The notes beneath the pieces are model-generated. The model was not told the origin of the DNA. It made no database searches and saw only the letters and a list, made by a program, of their open reading frames with translations. A stretch of DNA of 64,000 nt from Caenorhabditis elegans (lineage: Eukaryota; Nematoda; Chromadorea; Rhabditida; Rhabditidae), in NCBI RefSeq assembly GCF_000002985.6, contig NC_003284.9:17654943-17718942 (forward strand). The letters are read 5' to 3'. Position numbers and translations under genes: made by a program. Shown one piece after another: positions 41,533-58,471 of the stretch; within the stretch, counting starts at the first letter, position 1; each line of letters starts with the position of its first letter.

Positions 41533-44500
41533 ATGGGCGATAAAATAACCGGTTTGGAGGTTGAGATTATTCCGGAAATTTCAGAAGTTCAACCTGAATC
41601 TCTTCAAGAACAGAACGCCTCGTCGTTATATTACCCACTTTTCTCGCAATATATACCTCTTTTATTAACTGGAACAAAGAAAATATTAGAGGACATCGAT
41701 TATTGCACATGTTTTGCGGTTTTCGGTGTGGTTTTTGTGAGTGCATTGTACTTTTTGCACATTGTTGGTTTATGCTATGGGTGAGTTTTTTGAGTCTTCA
41801 AAATGAAAATCGAGCCAGACATTAAAAAGTTAATAAAAAATTTTCATAGAATTCTGTAACCAAAATAGAATCTCGCAGCTGCCTAATTATGAAAATATAC
41901 TTTCTGCAGCAATTTTTATAATTAGGCTTTTTGTAAAGTCTATGAAAAGATTTGGAAATAGTTTCCTACTGAACCTCACATGAGCTCATTTTTCATTTTT
42001 ATAAGTTTTTTTTTTAACTTTCAGAAAATAAATTGTTTCAAATTGAAAAAATTATAAGATTTTTAAAAAGTTGAGGGAAATTACATATCGTAATTTTCTA
42101 ATTCATTGTTGCTACAAAAAACTATTTAAAAAAAAACCATCACAAAAAATATGTTGACACTCGGGACCAGTAGAGGGGAGTCAGTCACCCTACCGAGTGA
42201 CAAACAGCGTATTACAGATACGCGCGGAGAGACACGGAGCAAGGTTCGAGCGGCATTGGTGATAAGCGGTGCGGAGAGAATAACAGTACACAGTTTCAGA
42301 TGAATTCCAGTTTATTCAGTGGATATAAATAGGAATTAAAGTGATTAACAGAATGGAAATGGTGCAGAAAGGTCCTGAATCACAGTGTCTGCGGATGGGT
42401 AGCCGCTGACTCGTCTGGAGAAAGTAGAACAGAATGAACGATTGGCCTAAAAGTAGGTTAGAATTATTGTGTGGATTTACGGAGCTATGACGCTTCGGAA
42501 TAACGGGAGTTATCGGAGGAGCGCGCTTGCATCGGGAAATACGCAAATGGCGGTAATTCAAATGGGATGTATTATTAATAGATAATAAACGGAAAAGGAC
42601 AACGGAGAGTGAATGTATTCGCGGATAATGAGTGGTGGCGAGTGGGTGAGCCTGACCGGTCATATATCTGCAAAGTTGGGACGCAGGGAAAGCGTTAGGC
42701 CCAAATCACAACAAAATACACTTTTGGCTTTTTTCGAATTATAAGCAAGTCGGACGACAACAAATATGAAACGATATTCACAAGATTTTGTGAGTCAAAA
42801 GTTTTTTTTTTAACTATGGAAACACGAAATATCGGCTTCAAAAAACCGATGCAATCCCCAATAAAATATACAGTTAAATTTTGTTAAATTTTTTAAACAA
42901 ATTTTCCAGGGTTATAGAATTGTTATCTTAAATAAATACTATTTTAAACATCTAACATTTTCTTTTCACAAGTTCTTGCTCGGATTTTCGAATACTGTTT
43001 ACACTAGCTGTTTTTTTCTAAAAGAACCTGTTCCAGAAAGTATCGACTCCACCGTCCAACCAAACCCAACCCTTCACTACCCGGAGTCTCAATTATCAAG
43101 CCAATTATAGGAGCCGACGCTAATTTATACACAAATTTAGAAACATTTTTTACAACGCAGTATCACAAATTTGAACTTCTATTTTGCTTTGACAGATCAG
43201 ATGATCCAGCAGTGAAGGTAGTGGAGAGCTTAGTCAAGAAATATCCCTCAGTTGATTCAACTATGTTTTTTGGTTAGTTCTATCCGAAAGAACGAAATTT
43301 TCAACAAATAATTCCAGGTGGCGAAAAAATTGGCCTGAACCCAAAAATCAACAACATGATGCCAGCTTATAGAATAGCCAAGTACCAACTTATAATGATT
43401 AGTGATAGTGGAATATTTATGAAATCTGACGCAGTTTTGGATATGGCAAGTACAATGATGAGCCATGAGACAATGGCGTTAGTGACGCAAACTCCGTATT
43501 GCAAGGACAGAAAAGGGTTTGCTTCGGTTTTTGAGCAAGTGAGTTGTATTGAATGGTCAAAACAAACAAAAACTCTAGCAAGTCAAAAAATTGCGCGCCA
43601 ATCCAAATTTTGAAGCGTCTTACGCTAATTTTTATCGTTGTTAACGTACTTGCCTGTTTTAATATCGCCTTGAGTATTTCAGTATGGGCTACACTTGTTA
43701 GTAATCTCCCCACATCGACTACTTCTTCTTTAACATTGATACATATAGACTAAATAGTTTTAGATATATTTCGGAACCTCTCATGCCAGAATTTATCTAG
43801 CCGGAAACTGCCTCCAATTCAACTGCCCAACCGGAATGTCATCGATGATGAAAAAGGAAGCATTGGATGAATGTGGCGGCTTTGCTGCGTTCAGTGGATA
43901 TCTTGCCGAGGATTACTTCTTCGGGAAGAAACTGGCGTCTCGAGGATACAAATCAGGAATTTCTACACATCCAGCGCTACAAAATTCTGCTGCGGTAACC
44001 ATGACGTCATTCACGGATAGAGTCTGTCGATGGGTGAAGCTTAGAATGGCAATGATGCCTCAAATTATTTTTGTGGAGCCGCTGCAAGTGAGTCTTCATA
44101 GTAAAAAGTATTATATTGGGGGAGGTGGAGAATAAGCTCCAGGAATCTTTGTTATCATTACGCTATTTTATGTGACAATAGATTAAAAAAATTTTCATAC
44201 CATCAAGGCCTTAACTCGGAGCCATTTTTTGAGGCATCTGTCCGATCGCGCTTCTTTTCCGCTGAGTTGAATAAATTGGTTTTGTTTAATTTAAAATGAA
44301 GTATGTGGATTTATTGAAAACTTAAAAAAAACCAGACTAGTTTAAAAACAACATTTTATTGATCGTTAAAAAAATATTAAATTGTTTTTATTTATAATAA
44401 ATTCAAATTTCGGAATGTCAAAAAAAAGTTCCTTACTATTACTATGACTCCTATCTATGACTCCTATCCTTACTATGACTGTTTTGCATTATTTCTGCAT

Positions 44501-48473: not shown

Positions 48474-49011
48474 TGTTGACACCCGCAGTCGCTGGGGAGT
48501 CAGACCCAACGGGTGAGAACGGCGAAATGTGTGTTCGCGCGGAGGACACGGAGCTTGGACGAGCGGCGGATGACGATGAGCGGTGCAGAGGGAATAGCAG
48601 TACACATTTAGATAAATCCAAGTTTATTATGAATAAATAAATGGAATTATCAACGGGAACAGACGGATGACGTGGGGACGGGTGGCATCCGTGGAGAAAC
48701 GTGTGAAGACTGAATGAGTTGGCCTAAAAAGGCATCTGAATATTTGTGTGGATTTACGGGAGTACGACGCTCCGCAATAACGCAAGTGTGCGGGGGGGGG
48801 GGGCGCACTTGCATTAGGAAATACGCAAATGGCGCTAATTCAAATAATAGTATTTAATTAGTTAAAGAATGGAATGTTTCTGAGTGAACGAATGGAACAG
48901 AGAGTGAGCGACTCATGCGGATGGTGATTGTGGGTTCGTGGGTGAACCTGACCAAGCGCCTATATCCGCAAAGTTGGGACGGACGGGCTCTGCGGAGCCC
49001 AAGTGACAACA
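48474..49011 (-). repeat. 3' LTR of the BEL/Pao element
   Basis: 538 bp. In the sense (minus) direction it begins TGTTGTCAC and ends GTGTCAACA; AATAAA lies in the sense strand near 48630 as a likely poly-A signal. It differs from the 5' LTR by, for example, GGTGGCATCC against GGTGACATCC, GCAGTACAC against ACAGTACAC, and the length of a G run. Confidence 0.93.
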
Positions 49012-50508
49012 CTCCGGGGGGGAGGGCAGAGGCTCGACCATGACTGACAGACTGTGTACATAATTGATATAGGGCGCCTTGGCCTTTCGAGGAATGTAAT
49101 CTCGGGTTCTACCTGGTGGAAGGTTGGCCGCGGCGTGATCTGATGATGAATCAGGAGTCGTCGTGTGAGGATCTCTGTATCCGAGTACATTGTCATGGAA
49201 GTCTGGATTAGGCATGTCGGAGTCGATGCCGTCAAATTCCAAAGCAAGAAGTCCAAGGGGTAAGTGGAGCATCTTGACGTTCATACGGGCTGATAGAGTA
49301 CGTGATTTTGCGATGAGTAGCATTGTCTCGTATTGTACGTTCGGGGTACTGCAGAACGCATCGACCGGGAATGTTGGCCGTCGTGTGCGATCTTCGCAGG
49401 TGTGCTTTTCTGCGGCCACTTTTTTGTCTCCTGGTGAGTTGAGAGAGTGGGATAATCCTTGGAAAGTAGGATTTTTAAGTGAGATAAGCTGGCATACGGA
49501 GTGTAGGTAGCACTTTTCGTTTGCTTTGAACCTAGCGGTGCGAAGTTCGTTCGCGTGATTGGTTCTATGAACTTTCGCAATGGAAGGCCTCTTGAGGTTA
49601 TTGGAGTCCTTCCAAGACTTGCCCGGGAACATTGAACACCTGATTGGTATCATTCTGTTTACGATTTTTGATATATTTAAGAGAGAGTGTGTGAAGGCTA
49701 TTTCTCTCTTGGGTTGGTGATCAATGTCCAAGATGGAATTATCTGTAGACAACGTATAGACGATGTCGCTAGAATCCCAGATGTAGCCCAAGAGTTTGAT
49801 TTCTCTGGACTCTGCTCTATCTTCGCAAAGAAGGTGAGCCATGATAGAGCTTATATTTGTAACAAACTCGCTCAGCTTCATGCTCTTGTCTTTGAAAGAA
49901 AACTTAGCTGGCATGACTGGAGGCATGATTTTGTGAAAATCATTTGCGTCGAGCAGATGTTCGTCAATGTAGAGATTGTCTCTGATGGCAGCGCTTAATA
50001 GTAGTGTTGTGCTTGACACTTTAAGCGGGATTCTTGTGGACCAGTAACGATTGTGGATTATCGATTCTTGGTAATTGACCACCTTATGATAATTTAGTGA
50101 TATTAAATTTAGTGATAGAATTTTAGATACAGCGGTCGACGCATCGTGGAAGCCTTGTGACACTGGCTTGAAAAAGCTGGTCGGGAAGAGACCGATTGCC
50201 TTGGGTATGACATGTTGAAAAAAGGAGTCCATTAGGGACAAAAAAACAACAACCGTAACGCGTTTTGAGACAGTGAAATGACTTGTATCTAATGGCGACA
50301 CATTCCGTAGTGTTGGGAAAGGTTGGCCATGAAGGTCGTTATGAGAGACCATGAAGTTAAATATTTGGAGAGAGGGAACGTTGACGCAACTTGCTGATTG
50401 CGAATCAGCTTTTGACAGGGGGCTCTGTGCGGTTGGCCCCGTGCCCGCCCACAATGAATTAGTGGGAGGTGTTGCGAGTTCCCCTCTCTCTGTGGAGAGG
50501 GAGATCAC
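48913..50508 (-). pseudogene. Deleted BEL/Pao pol remnant (531 codons)
   Basis: The frame contains a recognisable end of a Pao-type reverse transcriptase. NLYIDEHLLDA stands where the catalytic YVDD-like box belongs, and MKLSEFVTNISSIMAHL then IKLLGYIWDSSD follow in the family's order. The fingers and palm upstream of it, the protease and the integrase catalytic core are not seen. Thus one or more large deletions fused pol fragments; the stretch reading HLPLGLLALEFDG may be the conserved end of the integrase. The frame runs into the 3' LTR. Enzymatic activity is not expected. It overlaps the upstream Gag-like frame by 50 bases in another frame. Confidence 0.6.
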
Positions 50509-51898
50509 GAAATAACCGACTAGCCGGATCCTCGTGTATTGGTGAATCAGAAGCTTGTTCGGAGACTGATGACCAGGGTGTGGTGTGCATGGACGCCGCG
50601 ATCAAGCCATTTTCGAAGCTGTTAATGTGCTTGCGAATTCTCTCATAAAGAATATTTGCGGAAGGGGTTTCCAAATCAGTGTAAAACTCCGTGGCTTTAT
50701 CTCTGAGGGAGAGAGGGAGTTTTCCGATGAGACCCAAGGTGATCCGCTCGTCGGAGGCTGAGAGACCCGATGCGGTCAGTCTTTGCACCAAGAGCTGGTG
50801 GGAGATGAGATCTAGTTTCATTTGTTCCGGATTGGAATGATTGAACTTGAGCGTTCTGAATTGCTCGAGTAAACCTCTTTGAGTATCTCCTTTACCAAAT
50901 ACAGACTCTAACATGTCCATAGTTGTTTTGTAAGCTACCATGGAATCATCGTGATTTGAGATGCATGGCAAGGCTTTTCCGAGCAGGTGACTGCGTAACA
51001 TGTTGAACTTTGTCACTGCTGGAAGTCGAGGATTGGCAAGAACGACTGCATTGAATCTGTTCTTGAAGGCACGGAAGTTGCCAGTGCCGTCAAACTTTTG
51101 CAAGTGTTTGGCGTTGCTTTCGAAGTTGACGACTCCAAGGACTCGGCTAGAGACTGAAAGAGGAGGTGAAGTATCACCCTGATCGAGCTCGATCTCACTT
51201 TCCGCTTCTGCCTCAATATCACTACGATTTGAGGAGCGGTCAGCGAGGGCCTGTAGGCGGTTCGACAGTTCGATGTTGATTGCTGCCTGAGCTCTTCTCG
51301 CTTCCGACTGATTATTTTGAATGCTAGTGATGAGTCGACCCATGTCCTGAATGGCTTGCAGGATCACGTTGTCCGCTTGCGCGGGAGAAGGATGGCCATG
51401 AGCAGTCTGAGGTGAAGCAGACTGAAGAATCGGAGCCTCAGCCAATCCGGGTGGAATGGAAGTTTGTTGCGGTGTGAATCGCTGACGCTCTAGAATGGGA
51501 GAGGCCTCCGATTGACGTCGGTGCTCTTCCATCATGTGATTGTGAGCGGCTCTGATTTCTCCGAGATCGAGCACTGGGCTTCTGCCGAGCTCTTCGTTTT
51601 GTTCGGCCAATCTCTGCTGTTCCGCGAGCTTATCCTCTAAGGATCTGATTCTGATTTGGTCTAACTTGCGTTGGTGTTGTTCTTCAGCAAGTTCGTCGGC
51701 TAAGGTGGATTGATGAGACCACCTGTCGACATCAGAATCTCGGATTCGGGTCACTGTGCTGAATGGCGACGCTGTCCGATACATGTTAATCGGGGAATCC
51801 CGTGTTGGATGTGAAAGGATCGCTGATGTGATCGTCACTCTGGGCTCAGGAACTTTGATGTGCTCGTTCCCTGATATGACATTGTGATCTGAGCCCAT
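50459..51898 (-). CDS. Gag-like protein of the BEL/Pao element (DUF1759-like), 479 codons
   Basis: Residues about 50-130 are a charged probable coiled coil (LADELAEEQHQRKLDQIRIR). Residues about 260-400 contain the capsid-like region of BEL/Pao elements: LQKFDGTGNFRAFKNRFNAV, KFNMLRSHLLGKAL, LLEQFRTLKF and LISHQLLVQRL, with LGLIGKLPLSLRDKA after them. Open sequence continues upstream of the ATG (reading SQSESDDLSSINHALEDLNTN) and overlaps the end of the preceding frame, so the protein probably begins further upstream and this ATG need not be used. No zinc knuckle lies in this frame. Confidence 0.65.
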   Translation of the reverse strand: MGSDHNVISGNEHIKVPEPRVTITSAILSHPTRDSPINMYRTASPFSTVTRIRDSDVDRWSHQSTLADELAEEQHQRKLDQIRIRSLEDKLAEQQRLAEQNEELGRSPVLDLGEIRAAHNHMMEEHRRQSEASPILERQRFTPQQTSIPPGLAEAPILQSASPQTAHGHPSPAQADNVILQAIQDMGRLITSIQNNQSEARRAQAAINIELSNRLQALADRSSNRSDIEAEAESEIELDQGDTSPPLSVSSRVLGVVNFESNAKHLQKFDGTGNFRAFKNRFNAVVLANPRLPAVTKFNMLRSHLLGKALPCISNHDDSMVAYKTTMDMLESVFGKGDTQRGLLEQFRTLKFNHSNPEQMKLDLISHQLLVQRLTASGLSASDERITLGLIGKLPLSLRDKATEFYTDLETPSANILYERIRKHINSFENGLIAASMHTTPWSSVSEQASDSPIHEDPASRLFRDLPLHRERGTRNTSH

Positions 51899-51936
51899 GT
51901 TTGTATTGAGATCTTCGAGCGCGTGATTGATGCTGC

Positions 51937-52593
51937 TCAGATCGTCCGACTCGGATTGTGATGAGTCAGCACGTACGGAGTGAGTACGTTGTCATGACGA
52001 ACATGGGGGGTCACTGGTAAGCCGAGAGATGACAACTCTCTTTCCAACATGACGATGTCACGTTTTGCCTCGTTGAGGAGGGCTTGAGGTTGGAGTCCTG
52101 CAAGATGAGCTTCCACCTCTTTGTGATAGGTGTCCCTATTGGGGGAATCTCGCAGTGCCGGTTCTTGGAACTTGTCGTTCACGAATTGGCGTAGGTTCTC
52201 CAACTCCTCCGCGTAATGCCGAAGTTTGATGAGAACTTGATTCGCATTGCGGAGGATAGCGTTCTCGATGGGAGGAGAAACGTTCGGGTTGCAACCAAAA
52301 TGTTCCAGCATCGTTCTAGACGCTTCCTGATGAAACTGTCGCGTCTTATTGACGATGCGGGTGATGGTACCCTTGATAGTGGCGGCTGGCGATCTCAAGT
52401 GGTGTGGGCGACCACGTCTCGAGCGTCGGTTTGATTGCCTGCCTGAGGGGTTACCTTGAGCGGTAGCCGATGAGTCACCTTGAAGGGTGGCCTCGGGTGC
52501 CTCTGGGTTGTCAACATGCGGGGTGTCGACTTCCGGGAGACCTTTTGAAGATTTGGAGATTGCACTCATTTCCAGGGTGATTGCCAAAGACAA
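51937..52593 (-). CDS. N-terminal part of the Gag-like region, 218 codons
   Basis: An open frame with basic, Ser/Arg-rich residues (RQSNRRSRRGRPHHL), then a helical region (FHQEASRTMLEHFG, LIKLRHYAEELENLRQFV, LNEAKRDIVMLEREL). It ends 39 bases before the ATG of the next frame, which is offset by one. The two open stretches overlap near 51945-51965, so either a frameshift mutation or ribosomal frameshifting links them. Family similarity is not recognisable in this part; membership of Gag is inferred from order. Confidence 0.5.
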   Translation of the reverse strand: MSLAITLEMSAISKSSKGLPEVDTPHVDNPEAPEATLQGDSSATAQGNPSGRQSNRRSRRGRPHHLRSPAATIKGTITRIVNKTRQFHQEASRTMLEHFGCNPNVSPPIENAILRNANQVLIKLRHYAEELENLRQFVNDKFQEPALRDSPNRDTYHKEVEAHLAGLQPQALLNEAKRDIVMLERELSSLGLPVTPHVRHDNVLTPYVLTHHNPSRTI

Positions 52594-53396
52594 TAAATCC
52601 AGTTAACTGAAATGAGTGAATTTTGATTGAGTTGTTTTGAATACTCAATACTGTTGGAGTGTACACTTCAATCTCCGAGGTGGAGATGATGTGTGTATTT
52701 TTGAAAACCTTTCCCCCTCATTCTTTGATCATCTAACAAAATGCATCTGAACCGAGTGCTGTAGCTCCCGCCGGTATGATCACGGTGGGATCAGATGGGA
52801 ATGAGTGGATCCAGGGACGCATGGTTCAAGTGGACATTATGCTTTCCGAATAATGTAAACTCTACGTCGTTTGACATTATGTTTTTTGGATAATGTGTAC
52901 TCTGCGGCGAATGACATTACGTCGCTAGAGTTTTTGTGGTTTGTTGGATTTCTTTGTGGGAATGACTTAATGAAAATCCCTTCTCGAACCATTCAGAGAT
53001 GCAATCTGACCATGGCACCTACCAACTGGTTGAACCGACTTGTTGGCTTTTTCTTTTTGAGTGGAAATGTGGCATGTGGCTCGAGAAGTCTCCTAACAAT
53101 GTCTCAAAGAGAGTAGCGGAGCCGTAAAACCAAGTTCGGATCTGGATGACCGGTCAATTTCAAACATAGTTTACTTTTCTGAACCGAGTTTTTATTGCTC
53201 GTGAGAGTAATATTAAACTCTGTCTAATATCAAGTGACATTGTGTTTATCAGAACAGACCTGGACGTCAACTGAACGAATAACTTTTGATTTATGTGGTT
53301 TTGAATAATTTTGACATATTTTTGCCAATGTTGTGTACCAAGTGTGATAGAATTTTTGAATTGAAATTTTATATTTGATATTTGATATTTACGGAC

Positions 53397-53504
53397 TGAG
53401 ACAGTTTAGTTCATCAGGAGAACTTTATTTGACGGGAAATTACCCAAAAGCAAACGAAAATTACAATACGATAGGTGTGGATCGAGTAATTAACAGTGTC
53501 TCAG
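53397..53504. repeat. Small fold-back or LTR-like unit in the leader
   Basis: TGAGACA at 53397 is matched by TGTCTCA ending at 53504. The 108-bp unit contains AGGAGAACTTTATTTGACGG. It might be a short LTR or hairpin relic; there is no target duplication and no partner copy. Confidence 0.3.
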
Positions 53505-55247
53505 TCTTTTTATAATTTGCTCAAGCTCCCATTGTTCCTGGTTGAGTGGTGGAACTGGCTATGAATCATAAGAAGTTGGGGAAAGAACTTCTTGAGAATA
53601 ACTCACTTCTGGATTTTGTACTGTTTCAAATCCATGGAAGCCACGTGCGGGTTTCAATTGTCCGATCTTTTTCAGATCTTAGGGTCATGGGGGAAGAACC
53701 AGCTGAACTGACAGGTATGTAGAAAAGGGTGGCCAGGTCTACAAATGTAGGTGGTTCTCTACGTTGACGCACAGGGAGAGGAAATCTCGGAGCACTACCA
53801 CGTGTATTGGGATGACGTGGTGCTCTCCACATGTCTGAAAAGGAAGGGGTGTGAACTTGTTTCAGACAAATGAGCAATAAGCTAGTTAAGCTGTGAAGCT
53901 TTGGAAGCTGAATGATGCTTTTAAGGTGATGCTGTTTTACTGTAGGTTCAATTGGGTAGTTGAGCCGCAGAGATATTTGATTTGAAGCCTTGTGTTTTGA
54001 AATCAGGTAGGCGACACGTAGGAGACGTGTTTTGAAAAGGTCAAGAACGTGAGACGACGTTTTGAACTTTGTTTGATTTTGTGAATGAATACAGAGGCTT
54101 TATCCACTTTGTGACACGTTGTCAAGCTTGTTTTGACTTTTATGAAATATTACAGAGGCTTCATCCACTTTGTGACACGTGTCGAAGCTTGTTTTGATTT
54201 TATAATTGGACTTTGCGAGAGGGGATGCTCGTAGTCTATTATCAATGCTAAGGTCTGAATTGCTGAGTGATGCAGCACCTTATATTGATCTATTCGTATT
54301 AGTTGACTTATTTCCAGTTAACATGTGGAATTACTATCGAGGACTTATGAAAGCACCTTGCCATCTTACGGCTAGTAGACACCTCTGAATTTCCGGCAAT
54401 GTGTGGAGTCAATCCGAGGATTAAATTCAACAAGACACTCTGAACGTCTGCCAGACATCCGATTGCTAGAAGCTCCTAGGCCCGTCGACTTCGGAGAATC
54501 TAGTACAAGTCGTGACAAGAATGGGGAAGCTGCCACCTTGAGCACCCTTGAAACAGCCTGTGCATCAGAACTTTAGTACATTCTTCATGACTAAATACTA
54601 GGGGTGAATTCAAGACCTTTTCTTTCATCGCGTTCATCAATTAAGAACAACCCCTAGCTGCTCGAGGGCTTAGTACTTTCGTGTGGTATAGTACTTCACT
54701 ATGAAAAAGCAAGAGTTTCCAATTGCTTCTGTTCTGATTCGGAGCAACAAGAACGTCTTCGAATCTGTCGGACGCTTTTGGGGAAGCTCCGACTGACTGT
54801 CGACGTTTTCTGAACGATTGTCTGAGTGATTCGTGTGATAGAATCGCAATCGTAAACGATCGTTTGAGTGATTCGTTTGACAAATCACAATCGTTTTTTG
54901 GGAAGATTGTTTCTTTGGGAGACGAACCTTCTTTGAAATTTACGTGACTTACTACGTAGTTAGAAGCCCTTTGGGTGGGAACCTCATGATGTGTAGATCG
55001 TGTGAAGTCATAATATTTGATGTAGGTGGTGAAACCGAAGACTAATGAATTACCCACGGTTGTTCTGAAGGGTGGCCGCGAGCTTAGAGATCATTTGAAC
55101 AGTTTGGAATCTCTATGACTGTCGCTAGTGAATGTTGCGATGAGATCCGACTTCGAGTTGAAAGTTCGAAGCAATAAGATTTTGATGACCTAGGAGTCTC
55201 TAGTTTTGATGGTGAAGCCGAGAGACTATTAAGCCTATGATGCCAAC

Positions 55248-55488
55248 TGTTATATCTAGGTATGAATAGATCCAGTTGTTTTTGATAAGCTCAGGGAAGG
55301 GAGCTTATGATTAGCGTTGAGTTAACAACATTGTCACGGTAATAAAGTGTAAACACTTTTATTTTTGATACAACTGCACCCAGGGTGGGAGTGAGTGTAC
55401 AATCCAACAGGTTTTGAGGGCAATTGAGGGCAATGAAAGGAAAGTTGAGTGAGACAAGTAGAAACGAGAGGATGGGAACTCGATAACA
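55248..55488 (-). repeat. LTR-like fragment of a second element inside the leader
   Basis: The 241-bp unit has the inverted ends TGTTAT...ATAACA. In the sense (minus) direction it is followed after one base by TTGGCATCATAGG, which has the look of a tRNA primer site (TGG start). It also carries AATAAA-type sequence near its middle (ATAAAAGTGTTTACAC). No second copy and no flanking duplication are present, so it is either a truncated nested insertion or a segment acquired by template switching. Confidence 0.45.
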
Positions 55489-55543
55489 TACATTTAAGGA
55501 TGGCCTGAGGGGAGATAACAACGAGTTCATCACTTAAAAGGGG

Positions 55544-56732
55544 TTAAGGATGGCCGAATAACAACAACAATAAATGGTTACAATTTAACAATAGATATGG
55601 ATGGAGGTGATCACCACATATTATTGCTCCAGTGACATCATCCTTGTACGGAGCATAGCGACGCTTCCTGGATAATTTTTGATGGTTGGCCTTGCGGTTG
55701 ACATCGCGCTGTGGGGCCTGCTGCTTCTTGGCTTGAGCGCCTTGCAGCTGTTGTTGTTCCTAAAGAAATGAGGGTGGATGTTCATTAGGATGTTGGCTAT
55801 ATCTCACCTTGCGGCGCTGAGTGCCGGCCAGATTGTCGGTGACTCCGACTTCCAGGCGGTTTCCACAGAGCTTCACCTTGTCCTCTTCGGGCTCACCGTC
55901 CGACATAGTGGAAGCAGTCGGTTGTAGCGTGTCCTGATTGGATGCACAACTGGCAGATGCCCTGCAATTAAAAGCTCTGTTGGAGAGGATTTGTTTTACG
56001 CTGAAACCTCCCGAAGAAGAAATTAATTATTCCATGGGAAAATTTGAAGATAGATTCCCCTGTGATCAGCGAATTTTTTGATTTTTGAAATCGCTGTGGT
56101 ATTTTGAATTAAAATCTTACGTGGCTTTTGTATCCTGCATAAGGTTGGCCAGAAGTATCGGGAAGTTTGACAACTCGTGTTGGGACCTTCGTGCTCCTTG
56201 GCTTGAAGGGTGGCCATGAGCTGGAGCCTTGGATCCATGACGTTGATATCCTTGTGAAGGATGGACATGGCGCTCGTGAAGATCCTTATGAGCATTGCGG
56301 CCTCCGGACTGAGCAGAAGTTAAGTTCTGCAAAGGAGTTTTATTATTTTCAGGAAAAAAATTGGCGAGAGGTTCCCCTGCGACCAAGGTTTTCTTTTACG
56401 TGTTTTTGAGATACGAGATTTGAAAATAAAATCCTTACACGGCTCTGTGATCCGCTTGAAGGGTGGCCATGGATGTCCGAGCCAGACGATGCTCTTTGGG
56501 AATCCATTCTGCGCTCGTGAGGTGAAGGCTCAGCGGTGGAATCCTGTAAAAGAAGTTAATTATTTCGGAAAAAAAATTGGTCAGGGGTTCCCCTGCGACC
56601 AAGGTTTTTCTTTACGTTTTTTGACAATAACGAAATAAATAATTAAATTCTTACCAACTCGGAAGCGCCGCTTGAAGGATGGCCAGTTGGTTTGGACGGC
56701 TTGTGATTGCCGGAAGGTGGTCTTGAAGACAT
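55544..56732 (-). CDS. Spliced five-exon leader ORF of the LTR element, 252 aa
   Basis: Minus-strand exons 56732-56655, 56543-56439, 56326-56121, 55961-55808 and 55759-55544 join in phase with nematode-type introns of 111, 112, 159 and 48 bases. The first three exons each contain GHPSS (TGHPSSGAS, HGHPSSGSQSR, HGHPSSQGARR) and are Ser/His/Arg-rich. Introns 1 and 2 share a block reading CTTGGTCGCAGGGGAACC, so exon-intron units were tandemly duplicated. Exon 4 encodes an acidic then conserved-looking stretch (KVKLCGNRLEVGVTDNLAG). Exon 5 is Gln- then Arg/Lys-rich (NHQKLSRKRRYAPYKDD), resembling an RNA-binding or nuclear-targeting region. In another frame exon 4 encodes CQLCIQSGHATTDC, a perfect CX2CX4HX4C knuckle. 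I know no family for the 252-residue product. It could be an accessory protein from a spliced element RNA or a captured host gene. Confidence 0.5.
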
Positions 56733-57912
56733 TTTCCGCCGAGAGAGTGATTTTCTGGAAGAAAAAACGAATAATTACGAGTCTCAGGAGGGGGAGACGT
56801 AAATAATTGACGGAAAATGTTTAGATTTAAGTAAAAATCATTAGAATGCAATAGAAATGCGAAAAATATTCGAAAATCGACAAAAATCATGACGAAAGAT
56901 TTTGGGATTCGATTTCGAAATTGCGAGTGTGCGGTTGCGCGTCGCGGTGTACACAGAGTCTGTGCATACACCGTTGCGTACCGTACTCCTCGGAGAATCT
57001 AAATTCCAACTGTTGAAGGTTTTGAGAGGTGATTCAGTGGATTTTGTGATGGAATCGTTGGAAAAAAGATAAATTTGCGGAGATATCGAGGGAAAATTGA
57101 ATTTTCAGATCATTTTTATCGCAATTTTGTGCAAAACGAAGATTTTGGAGGAAATCTCTGCTGAAAAGAGATAAATCGACGAGGATGGACCCGCCACGCG
57201 GTTTTCTTGAGAAAACAAGTCCTTTGAACACGAAAATGACGACAAAAATGCGATAAATCGCAATTTGACTTCAGCTAATCCTAGAAATTGCGTCATCTGT
57301 CGACATAAAATTATCTAAACGCGGAAGGGAGGGCCGAGCAGAGACATTGAGCCTAGATTGCAGATTTTGGCTGAATTTTAGCACATTTTATGACGAAGCA
57401 AAGGGAATTGAGCTGAAAACGACGAAAATGGGTAGTTTCATCGAGATTCTTCAGAGAAGGATGCTCCGGGGGGGGAGATTCTCTTCAGAATCGAGTTTAC
57501 GCAAGATTACGTAAGATTTTTTTGACCAATTTTAGGTATTTTAGCGCGGAAAACTCGTGATTGAGAGCGATAAAAGGCTAATGAGACCAGTTTCGAGTGT
57601 GATAATCGAAAAGGAATCAGAATTACACGTAGAGAATTCAGATTCGTGTGTGAAAAAACGAAAAATGAATTGGAGACGAAAATATTCGACATTCGAGCGG
57701 GAGGGTCGAAAAACCAGATTTTGAGCATGATAGAGTCAAAATTTAGCTTTTCCTGACTGTTTCGATCCATTTTCGAATGGGATAGTCGAAAATGAACCTA
57801 GAAAAGGCGATAATTGACGAAAATCGACTTATCTCTGGCCGCTGAAAGCCGCGCCACGTGCCTCCTTGACTCTGGATCCGTTTCCGGCTCGGAACTTAGT
57901 GATTCACGAGCC

Positions 57913-57930
57913 GGTTAGGTCGATGCACCA
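57913..57930 (-). promoter_or_regulatory. Primer-binding site, tRNA-Gly type
   Basis: One base inside the 5' LTR the sense strand reads TGGTGCATCGACC. From memory, nematode tRNA-Gly(GCC) ends in GGCCGATGCA plus CCA, whose complement is TGGTGCATCGGCC. The match is 12 of 13. This fixes the element's orientation as minus. Confidence 0.6.
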
Positions 57931-57931
57931 A

Positions 57932-58471
57932 TGTTGACACCCGCAGTCGCTGGGGAGTCAGACCCAACGGGTGAGAACGGCGAAATGTGTGTTCGCGCGG
58001 AGGACACGGAGCTTGGACGAGCGGCGGATGACGATGAGCGGTGCAGAGGGAATAACAGTACACATTTAGATAAATCCAAGTTTATTATGAATAAATAAAT
58101 GGAATTATCAACGGGAACAGACGGATGACGTGTGGGACGGGTGACATCCGTGGAGAAACGTGTGAAGACTGAATGAGTTGGCCTAAAAAGGCATCTGAAT
58201 ATTTGTGTGGATTTACGGGAGTACGACGCTCCGCAATAACGCAAGTGTGCGGGGGGGGGGGGGCGCACTTGCATTAGGAAATACGCAAATGGCGCTAATT
58301 CAAATAATAGTATTTAATTAGTTAAAGAATGGAATGTTTCTGAGTGAACGAATGGAACAGAGAGTGAGCGACTCATGCGGATGGTGATTGTGGGTTCGTG
58401 GGTGAACCTGACCAAGCGCCTATATCCGCAAAGTTGGGACGGACGGGCTCTGCGGAGCCCAAGTGACAACA
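57932..58471 (-). repeat. 5' LTR of the BEL/Pao element
   Basis: 540 bp, about 99% identical to 48474-49011. In sense orientation it lies upstream of the primer-binding site and should carry the promoter. Confidence 0.93.

Follow-up and report, generated by a model that had tools for sequence, protein, structure and literature searches.

Additional genes are found repeatedly in the LTR elements of Caenorhabditis elegans, and several of them are spliced. In the Ty3/gypsy element Cer1, the spliced mRNA of the multi-exon gene cerv encodes a non-structural protein (CERV) that is reported to be needed for the export of unspliced Cer1 RNA (PMC10309623). Cer9 carries sdg-1, described as being under heritable RNA silencing, and its paralogue ZK262.8 also resides in a retrotransposon (PMC11793870), listed elsewhere as CER8 (PMC4714518). 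In the leader of Cer12, an element that has been clustered with Cer16 (PMC1858694), we found a four-exon gene of 403 amino acids in the copies on chromosome X (16.83 Mb) and chromosome V (20.30 Mb). This gene is F41G4.7, which is reported to be repressed by HRDE-1 (PMC4714518) and heat-inducible.

We analyzed a stretch of 64,000 nucleotides (the window) that forms the final 64 kb of C. elegans chromosome X, at its right end, and contains a Cer16 element (copy A, Table 1). Between the primer-binding site and gag of this element lies a gene of five minus-strand exons encoding 252 amino acids, here called the leader gene. Like cerv, it has several exons and sits within an LTR element that keeps the splice signals in its genomic RNA. 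However, Cer1 and Cer16 belong to different superfamilies, and exons 1 to 3 of cerv are described as lying in the frame of gag with exon 4 in a frame of its own, whereas the Cer16 gene lies wholly before gag (exons at 55544-56732, gag ATG at 52569) and shares no N-terminal exons with it. By description, CERV has 517 amino acids and a Cys-rich loop; the Cer16 product has 252 (233 in copy B) and no known domains. As with sdg-1, the Cer16 gene is an extra gene in a Cer element. F41G4.7 is also intron-containing and located in the element leader, but it has four exons and 403 amino acids, its leader contains repeats around CTTGGAAGACATGCC, a different repeated motif from that of Cer16, and no sequence relation between the two genes was detected. 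The Cer16 gene stands out by lying entirely between primer-binding site and gag, by how many introns it has and by how well these are conserved.

The Cer16 element and its leader gene

The two LTRs of copy A differ by 2 substitutions and 2 gap columns over the 538 sites compared, have TG..CA ends and are flanked by the 5-bp target duplication ATTAG; the LTR has 34 matches genome-wide, many of them partial. The tRNA 3' end that matches the primer-binding site occurs at 15 genomic sites, and the one examined was identified by ARAGORN as tRNA-Gly(gcc). The gag region contains DUF1759 (Pfam, E 4.6e-8), a domain typical of BEL/Pao gag. These features bear out the first-pass annotation, which had placed a leader gene in a BEL/Pao element, behind the primer-binding site and ahead of gag. 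The 562-codon frame at 48913-50601 gave no Pfam match and so contains no intact pol; pol is only a remnant in copy A, which looks non-autonomous. Because a related copy on chromosome I (copy B) corresponds in location and size to Cer16-2 (chrI:11438000-11449000 in WS190, 9.3 kb; PMC4367959), we call the family Cer16, by coordinates rather than by a match to a reference sequence. The gag splice acceptor and the 5' untranslated region behind it (52567-52609) are conserved among the distant Cer elements A, F and G.

Table 1. Features of the Cer16 element, its leader gene and related copies. Positions are those of the window unless a chromosome is named.
Feature	Position	Strand	Basis or remark
Element A (Cer16, BEL/Pao)	48474-58471	minus	flanking LTRs
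5' LTR of element A (sense = minus)	57932-58471	minus	LTR pair; target duplication ATTAG
3' LTR of element A	48474-49011	minus	comparison with 5' LTR
Primer-binding site TGGTGCATCGACC	57918-57930	minus	13 nt complementary to tRNA-Gly(GCC) 3' end plus CCA
Exon 1, 78 nt, ATG at 56732	56655-56732	minus	cross-copy comparison
Intron 1, 111 nt, contains GGTCGCAGGGGAACC, ends paired in predicted fold	56544-56654	minus	folding
Exon 2, 105 nt	56439-56543	minus	cross-copy comparison
Intron 2, 112 nt, paralogous to intron 1	56327-56438	minus	repeat D4
Exon 3, 206 nt, ends in phase 2	56121-56326	minus	cross-copy comparison
Intron 3, 159 nt, GC-AG in copy B	55962-56120	minus	cross-copy comparison
Exon 4, 154 nt, alternative frame with C-X2-C-X4-H-X4-C	55808-55961	minus	cross-copy comparison
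Intron 4, 48 nt, boundaries kept in D	55760-55807	minus	cross-copy comparison
Exon 5 and stop, 216 nt, tail altered by 13-bp deletion relative to B	55544-55759	minus	cross-copy comparison
AATAAA poly(A)-like signal 3' of leader gene	55358-55363	minus	kept in D
gag splice acceptor TTTCAG/TTAACTGG (ends 52607; slash marks the acceptor end) and gag ATG (52569)	52567-52607	minus	kept in F and G elements
gag of element A, two overlapping frames in copy A, DUF1759 in the second	50459-52569	minus	reading frames, Pfam
GGCCAYCCTT, nine exact sites (range 51388-56684)	starts 51388, 52483, 53725, 55068, 55496, 55546, 56206, 56459, 56675	minus	
Copy B	chrI 11437867-11447127		LTR 96% identical to A
Copy C, 4.2 kb	chrIII 10050303-10054502		LTRs, leader, leader gene and pol-like remnant
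Copy D, without 5' part of leader gene	chrIV 9548195 to about 9558.9 kb		
Locus E	chrIV 2894293-2914657		split by about 19 kb (19.1)
F, more distant element family	chrX 3.75-3.77 Mb		
G, more distant element family	chrV 0.79 Mb		
Cer12 leader, chrX copy	chrX 16834900-16838400	minus	F41G4.7, introns 103/48/48
Cer12 leader, chrV copy	chrV 20300200-20303200		F41G4.7 copy, stop in exon 4

All four introns of the leader gene in copy A have GT..AG ends, with phases 0, 0, 2 and 0. The 252-residue product is identical, letter for letter, to P0004 (NCBI/UniRef, C. elegans), so the exon structure, which the first-pass annotation had also derived, was already in public annotation and the model is not new. 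P0004 carries the automatic database name Telomerase-binding protein EST1A. Because no Pfam family matched at E<=1 and no sequence relative was present in the PDB, this name is unsupported. In a protein database search that reaches only relatives of similar length with shared exact words, P0004 was the sole return for the leader gene among 171 candidates. A literature search found no published description of the gene; it was made partly under cTel55X and cTel55X.1, which we take to be a gene name, perhaps that of another gene. A splice acceptor ending at 56755, upstream of the ATG, is possibly a trans-splice site, and a comparable acceptor precedes the ATG in B, C, E and F. In F and G, an AATAAA is likewise found after the leader region.

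The product is rich in Ser and His and has a basic C-terminal region (...KLSRKRRYAPYKDD...). The basic region described from copy A is real, but the final residues (approximately 25) of that copy are a frameshift product of the 13-bp deletion relative to copy B. An alternative frame across exon 4 (55961-55808, minus) reads GICQLCIQSGHATTDCFHYV, with a zinc-knuckle-like pattern, and is open over the whole exon in B and C and stopped in A. We rejected it as the main frame because of this stop and because it has no in-phase join to exon 3; moreover, all 3 site differences in exon 4 among A, B and C alter this frame, and 2 of the 3 are synonymous in the 252-amino-acid frame. The zinc-knuckle frame may be a relic.

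Conservation of the gene among element copies

To define the distribution of the leader gene, its DNA was searched in the C. elegans genome (100,286,401 bases in 7 contigs), with only the best candidates being scored, so that copy counts are lower bounds. At least 5 places were found (A-E). All four introns and their phases recur in B and C as in A, the three LTR-bearing copies, so the splice sites, whose loss in related copies had been named beforehand as a sign against the gene, are conserved. Intron 3 of copy B is GC-AG. Copy B encodes 233 amino acids and copy C, with a stop within exon 5, 193; a full-length frame without visible lesion is present in copy B only, the copy with the GC-AG intron. 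Copy B has lost the first 45 bases of its 5' LTR and no target duplication was found for it. In copy C (stretch chrIII 10050561-10054600) exon 5 is joined directly to the pol-like remnant, and a gag DNA search gave no match. D and E are 66-94% identical by segment and, judged by this divergence, are old. D keeps the boundaries and frame of intron 4. E has a complete three-exon frame of 107 amino acids, with introns of 112 and 103 nt that are in frame, and diverges from A within exon 3.

Comparison of exon 5 between B and D gave a pS of 0.70 (20.8/29.8 synonymous) and a pN of 0.19 (22.2/117.2 nonsynonymous), and the C-terminal end (...RRYAPY.D...GAHGFFN...) is kept. This indicates that exon 5 is under purifying selection. 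Together with the recurrence of introns and phases in B and C, the frame in E and the intron 4 edges in D, this comparison confirms at the sequence level that the leader gene is a real coding gene and more than chance. The opposite reading, that the gene is a product of chance or of faulty gene prediction in decaying repeats, could draw on the unsupported EST1A name and the missing Pfam match, but it is largely refuted by the exon 5 test and by the splice sites conserved across copies, and we regard it as highly improbable.

Among the LTR-bearing copies, exons 1 and 2 have diverged more than introns 1-3. Between A and B, introns 1-3 differ at 8/380 sites and exons 1 and 2 at 28/180 (Fisher 8e-9); the corresponding figures are 5/377 and 17/183 for A and C, and 11/376 and 15/180 for B and C. 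Exons 3 and 4 show no elevated divergence among the three copies, and exon 5 differs at 1/114 sites between A and B and at 4-5 of 69 against C. The older locus E gives the same picture, with 56% and 67% identity to A in exons 1 and 2 and 83% and 82% in introns 1 and 2. Positive selection on exons 1 and 2 was considered and rejected, as synonymous divergence is also high (A/B pS 0.27, pN 0.13). The contrast between these exons and the introns may stem from recombination involving a more divergent copy, or from constraint acting on the intron sequences.

Probable structured introns and a sense-strand motif in the element

The 15-base motif GGTCGCRGGGGAACC has 7 matches in the genome, each of them within the first or second intron of A, B, C or E; its reversed control has no match genome-wide. 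When nine introns were folded at 20 C, 15-20 of the initial 20 bases of each were paired with its final 35. In the five introns tested against shuffles with fixed ends, this end pairing had P values of 0.005-0.035; ends also paired in 2 of 60 intron-like decoy stretches of the window and in none of a stricter set of 16. Whole introns were more stable than shuffles for A intron 1 (z -3.6), E introns 1 and 2 (z -3.5 and -2.3) and F intron 1 (z -3.3), but not clearly so for A intron 2 (z -1.48; 18/200 as good), and an 87-nt part of intron 3 did not exceed its shuffles in fold stability (z -0.19). The evidence for end pairing comes from folds of individual sequences, from the shuffles and from decoys that were few in number. 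In the alignment of the nine introns RNAalifold recovered the central hairpin only, and covariation was weak, with 1 of 16 pairs showing changes in both partners. Because of this weak covariation and the lack of end pairing in the consensus, we consider introns 1 and 2 likely, and short of proof, to be structured.

A second repeated signal, GGCCAYCCTT, occurs nine times in the window against 0.09 expected, a number reached in none of 100 shuffles, and is absent from the other strand of the window. Three sites lie in exons 1-3, where they read G-H-P-S, two in gag, of which one is in the G-H-P-S frame and one in another (EATLQG), and four outside conserved coding sequence. The F and G elements have GGCTAYCC in place of GGCCAYCC, which they lack altogether: 5 sites in the F leader gene region, 1 in the F LTR, 2 in F gag and 3 in G, with 1 more in the LTR of a further element, H. 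No antisense GGCTAYCC was found in the F, G or H elements. The presence of GGCTAYCC in both the F leader and F gag means that the variant base is common to leader and gag within F.

These repeats could indicate that the leader is mainly a cis-acting RNA, made of GGCYAYCC repeats and structured introns, in which the reading frame is secondary or dispensable. Such a reading would explain why the motif occupies only the sense strand, falls in two reading frames and outside genes, and recurs in its variant form in the leader of F and in the gags of F and G, and it would fit the damaged C-termini of C and A. However, it does not account for the purifying selection on exon 5 or for splice phases and frame being kept in E and D. 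In addition, copy C keeps only one of the three exonic motif sites unchanged, B has one changed, and D has one GGCCAYCC site and otherwise few and mixed variants. We give this reading only a slim chance.

Possible RNA fates, origin and function

The target duplications of A (ATTAG) and C (ATAAA) are distinct and both insertions carry all four introns. Each copy therefore derives from its own integration of intron-bearing RNA, and unspliced RNA has been reverse transcribed repeatedly, in agreement with the proposal of the first-pass annotation that introns survived because the copied RNA was unspliced. Its premise, that spliced introns vanish on copying, finds an example in Cer12. The chromosome V copy lacks intron 1 of the leader gene exactly at the exon junction, and introns 2 and 3 are kept in both copies. 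Assuming that the intron-bearing state on chromosome X is ancestral and that intron 1 was lost on chromosome V, reverse transcription of a partly spliced RNA explains this most simply and would have left a fossil of splicing. This suggests that such leader genes are spliced and that partly spliced RNA can be copied; it supports leader-gene splicing equally under two of the rival explanations and leaves their weighing unchanged.

We read the leader gene as an element-borne accessory gene, which probably acts on the element's own unspliced RNA or on its silencing. Our leading reading, held tentatively and at somewhat less than even confidence, is that it is a genuine accessory gene, that element RNA has spliced and unspliced fates, and that the protein acts on the unspliced RNA in a CERV-like manner. 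Transcription from the upstream LTR is inferred for HRDE-1-target LTR elements in hrde-1 mutants, with copy B among those listed, and Table 1 of that study places Cer16-2 (copy B) in a cluster that becomes transcribed on loss of nuclear RNAi (PMC4367959). The LTR transcript would either be spliced into an mRNA for the Ser/His-rich protein, probably ending at the AATAAA behind exon 5, or stay unspliced as the genome and perhaps also as the source of gag mRNA. The conserved acceptors at 56755 and 52607 suggest separate spliced or trans-spliced mRNAs. The AATAAA, also present in D, suggests that the leader gene has an independent 3' end, in which case full-length RNA must avoid both splicing and early polyadenylation. 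Introns 1 and 2, with their paired ends, could slow splicing or mark the unspliced RNA, and by analogy with CERV the leader protein would act on this RNA in export, stability or packaging. The analogy with complex retroviruses, raised from the sequence of copy A, is plausible because Cer1 makes the spliced CERV for the export of unspliced RNA (PMC10309623). Several points speak against the leading reading: no Pfam or PDB relative came up, copy B alone has an unlesioned full-length frame, covariation in the introns is weak, and the sister family, with leader genes unrelated in sequence, could mean that any cargo will do.

The strongest rival, which we regard as rather unlikely, holds that gene and introns serve a contest with heritable RNA silencing: the introns would hinder the spread of 22G-RNAs, the protein would act on germ-granule RNAi like SDG-1, or both, and the element would thereby tune its own silencing. 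The presence of sdg-1 in Cer9 and of its paralogue in CER8 (PMC11793870, PMC4714518) speaks for this, as does the location of copy B within an HRDE-1-silenced cluster (PMC4367959), and the regulation of F41G4.7 in Cer12 points the same way. C27C7.1, a gene listed at the cluster of copy B and possibly another than the leader gene, is reported to be up in a sid-1 mutant, and in a sensor assay the one-intron version, compared with that carrying three, showed a 5- to 6-fold excess of 22G-RNAs and did not need EMB-4 (PMC5554785). However, a silencing shield alone requires neither a conserved reading frame nor conserved intron sequence, and the targets described in PMC4367959 are autosomal, with hardly any on X. 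Another explanation, that the element captured a host gene segment together with its introns, gains from locus E, a complete three-exon homologue in which neither of two stretches, of 6.0 and 7.5 kb, contained a recognised LTR, and from the unrelated gene at the same place in Cer12, as repeated capture would give. Locus E, though, has some 830 bases of upstream leader in common with the element, as expected of an old element remnant, and portions of intron 1 and the upstream region are also present in F, a second element family. Beyond the 5 places found with the gene DNA, a search with the DNA of E yielded no further host locus among the 40 of 521 candidates scored, the rest matching a repeat of ~75 bases at its end only. 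All 13 genome matches to the protein query at E<=1 lie in A, B, C or D; this search missed locus E, so the lack of other host relatives is weak evidence. With all these matches inside element copies, and D and E being old, the recent capture offered in the first-pass annotation is not supported; locus E is compatible with more than one origin of the gene, and no clear host donor was found. Capture at any time appears quite improbable to us.

The most far-reaching form of the CERV-like reading is that C. elegans BEL/Pao elements have a modular 5' accessory locus, separate from gag and pol, with family-specific intron-bearing genes, and that in Cer16 the conserved paired-end folds of the introns and the GGCYAYCC array mark full-length RNA, a mark that the leader protein reads for export, protection or packaging. 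We consider this broad form improbable. If true, it would describe a Rev-like system whose response element consists of introns that splicing destroys. How intron-bearing retroelements maintain full-length RNA despite efficient splicing by the cell has been established for some retroviruses and, among C. elegans elements, for Cer1; a further intron-bearing gene in another superfamily and position, with introns more conserved than the exons beside them, would suggest a common solution in worms. As the genome has no match to the intron motif outside these introns, simple deletions would suffice to test the idea. The idea also touches on the reason for the presence of extra genes in Cer elements. 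The case is also a warning that a database 'EST1A' protein is retroelement cargo.

Several minor features were recorded. The two leader matches of locus E overlap by 6 query bases, and no direct repeat was found between the two stretches (chrIV 2.894-2.915 Mb) flanking its split. A match to the SAM-III riboswitch, on the opposite strand and under the family gathering score, was taken as chance. The F leader (chrX 3769599-3770859, minus) contains exon-like blocks, GYP modules, an AATAAA and a stretch that presumably resembles a ubiquitin-interacting motif; we rejected it as an intact gene because exons 1 and 2, in blocks read by eye, are out of phase. The window also contains a second, more distant LTR at 42152-42683 (minus), 67% identical to that of element A. 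Between the leader gene and gag (54077-54198) lie two 61-bp tandem units that are 84% alike.
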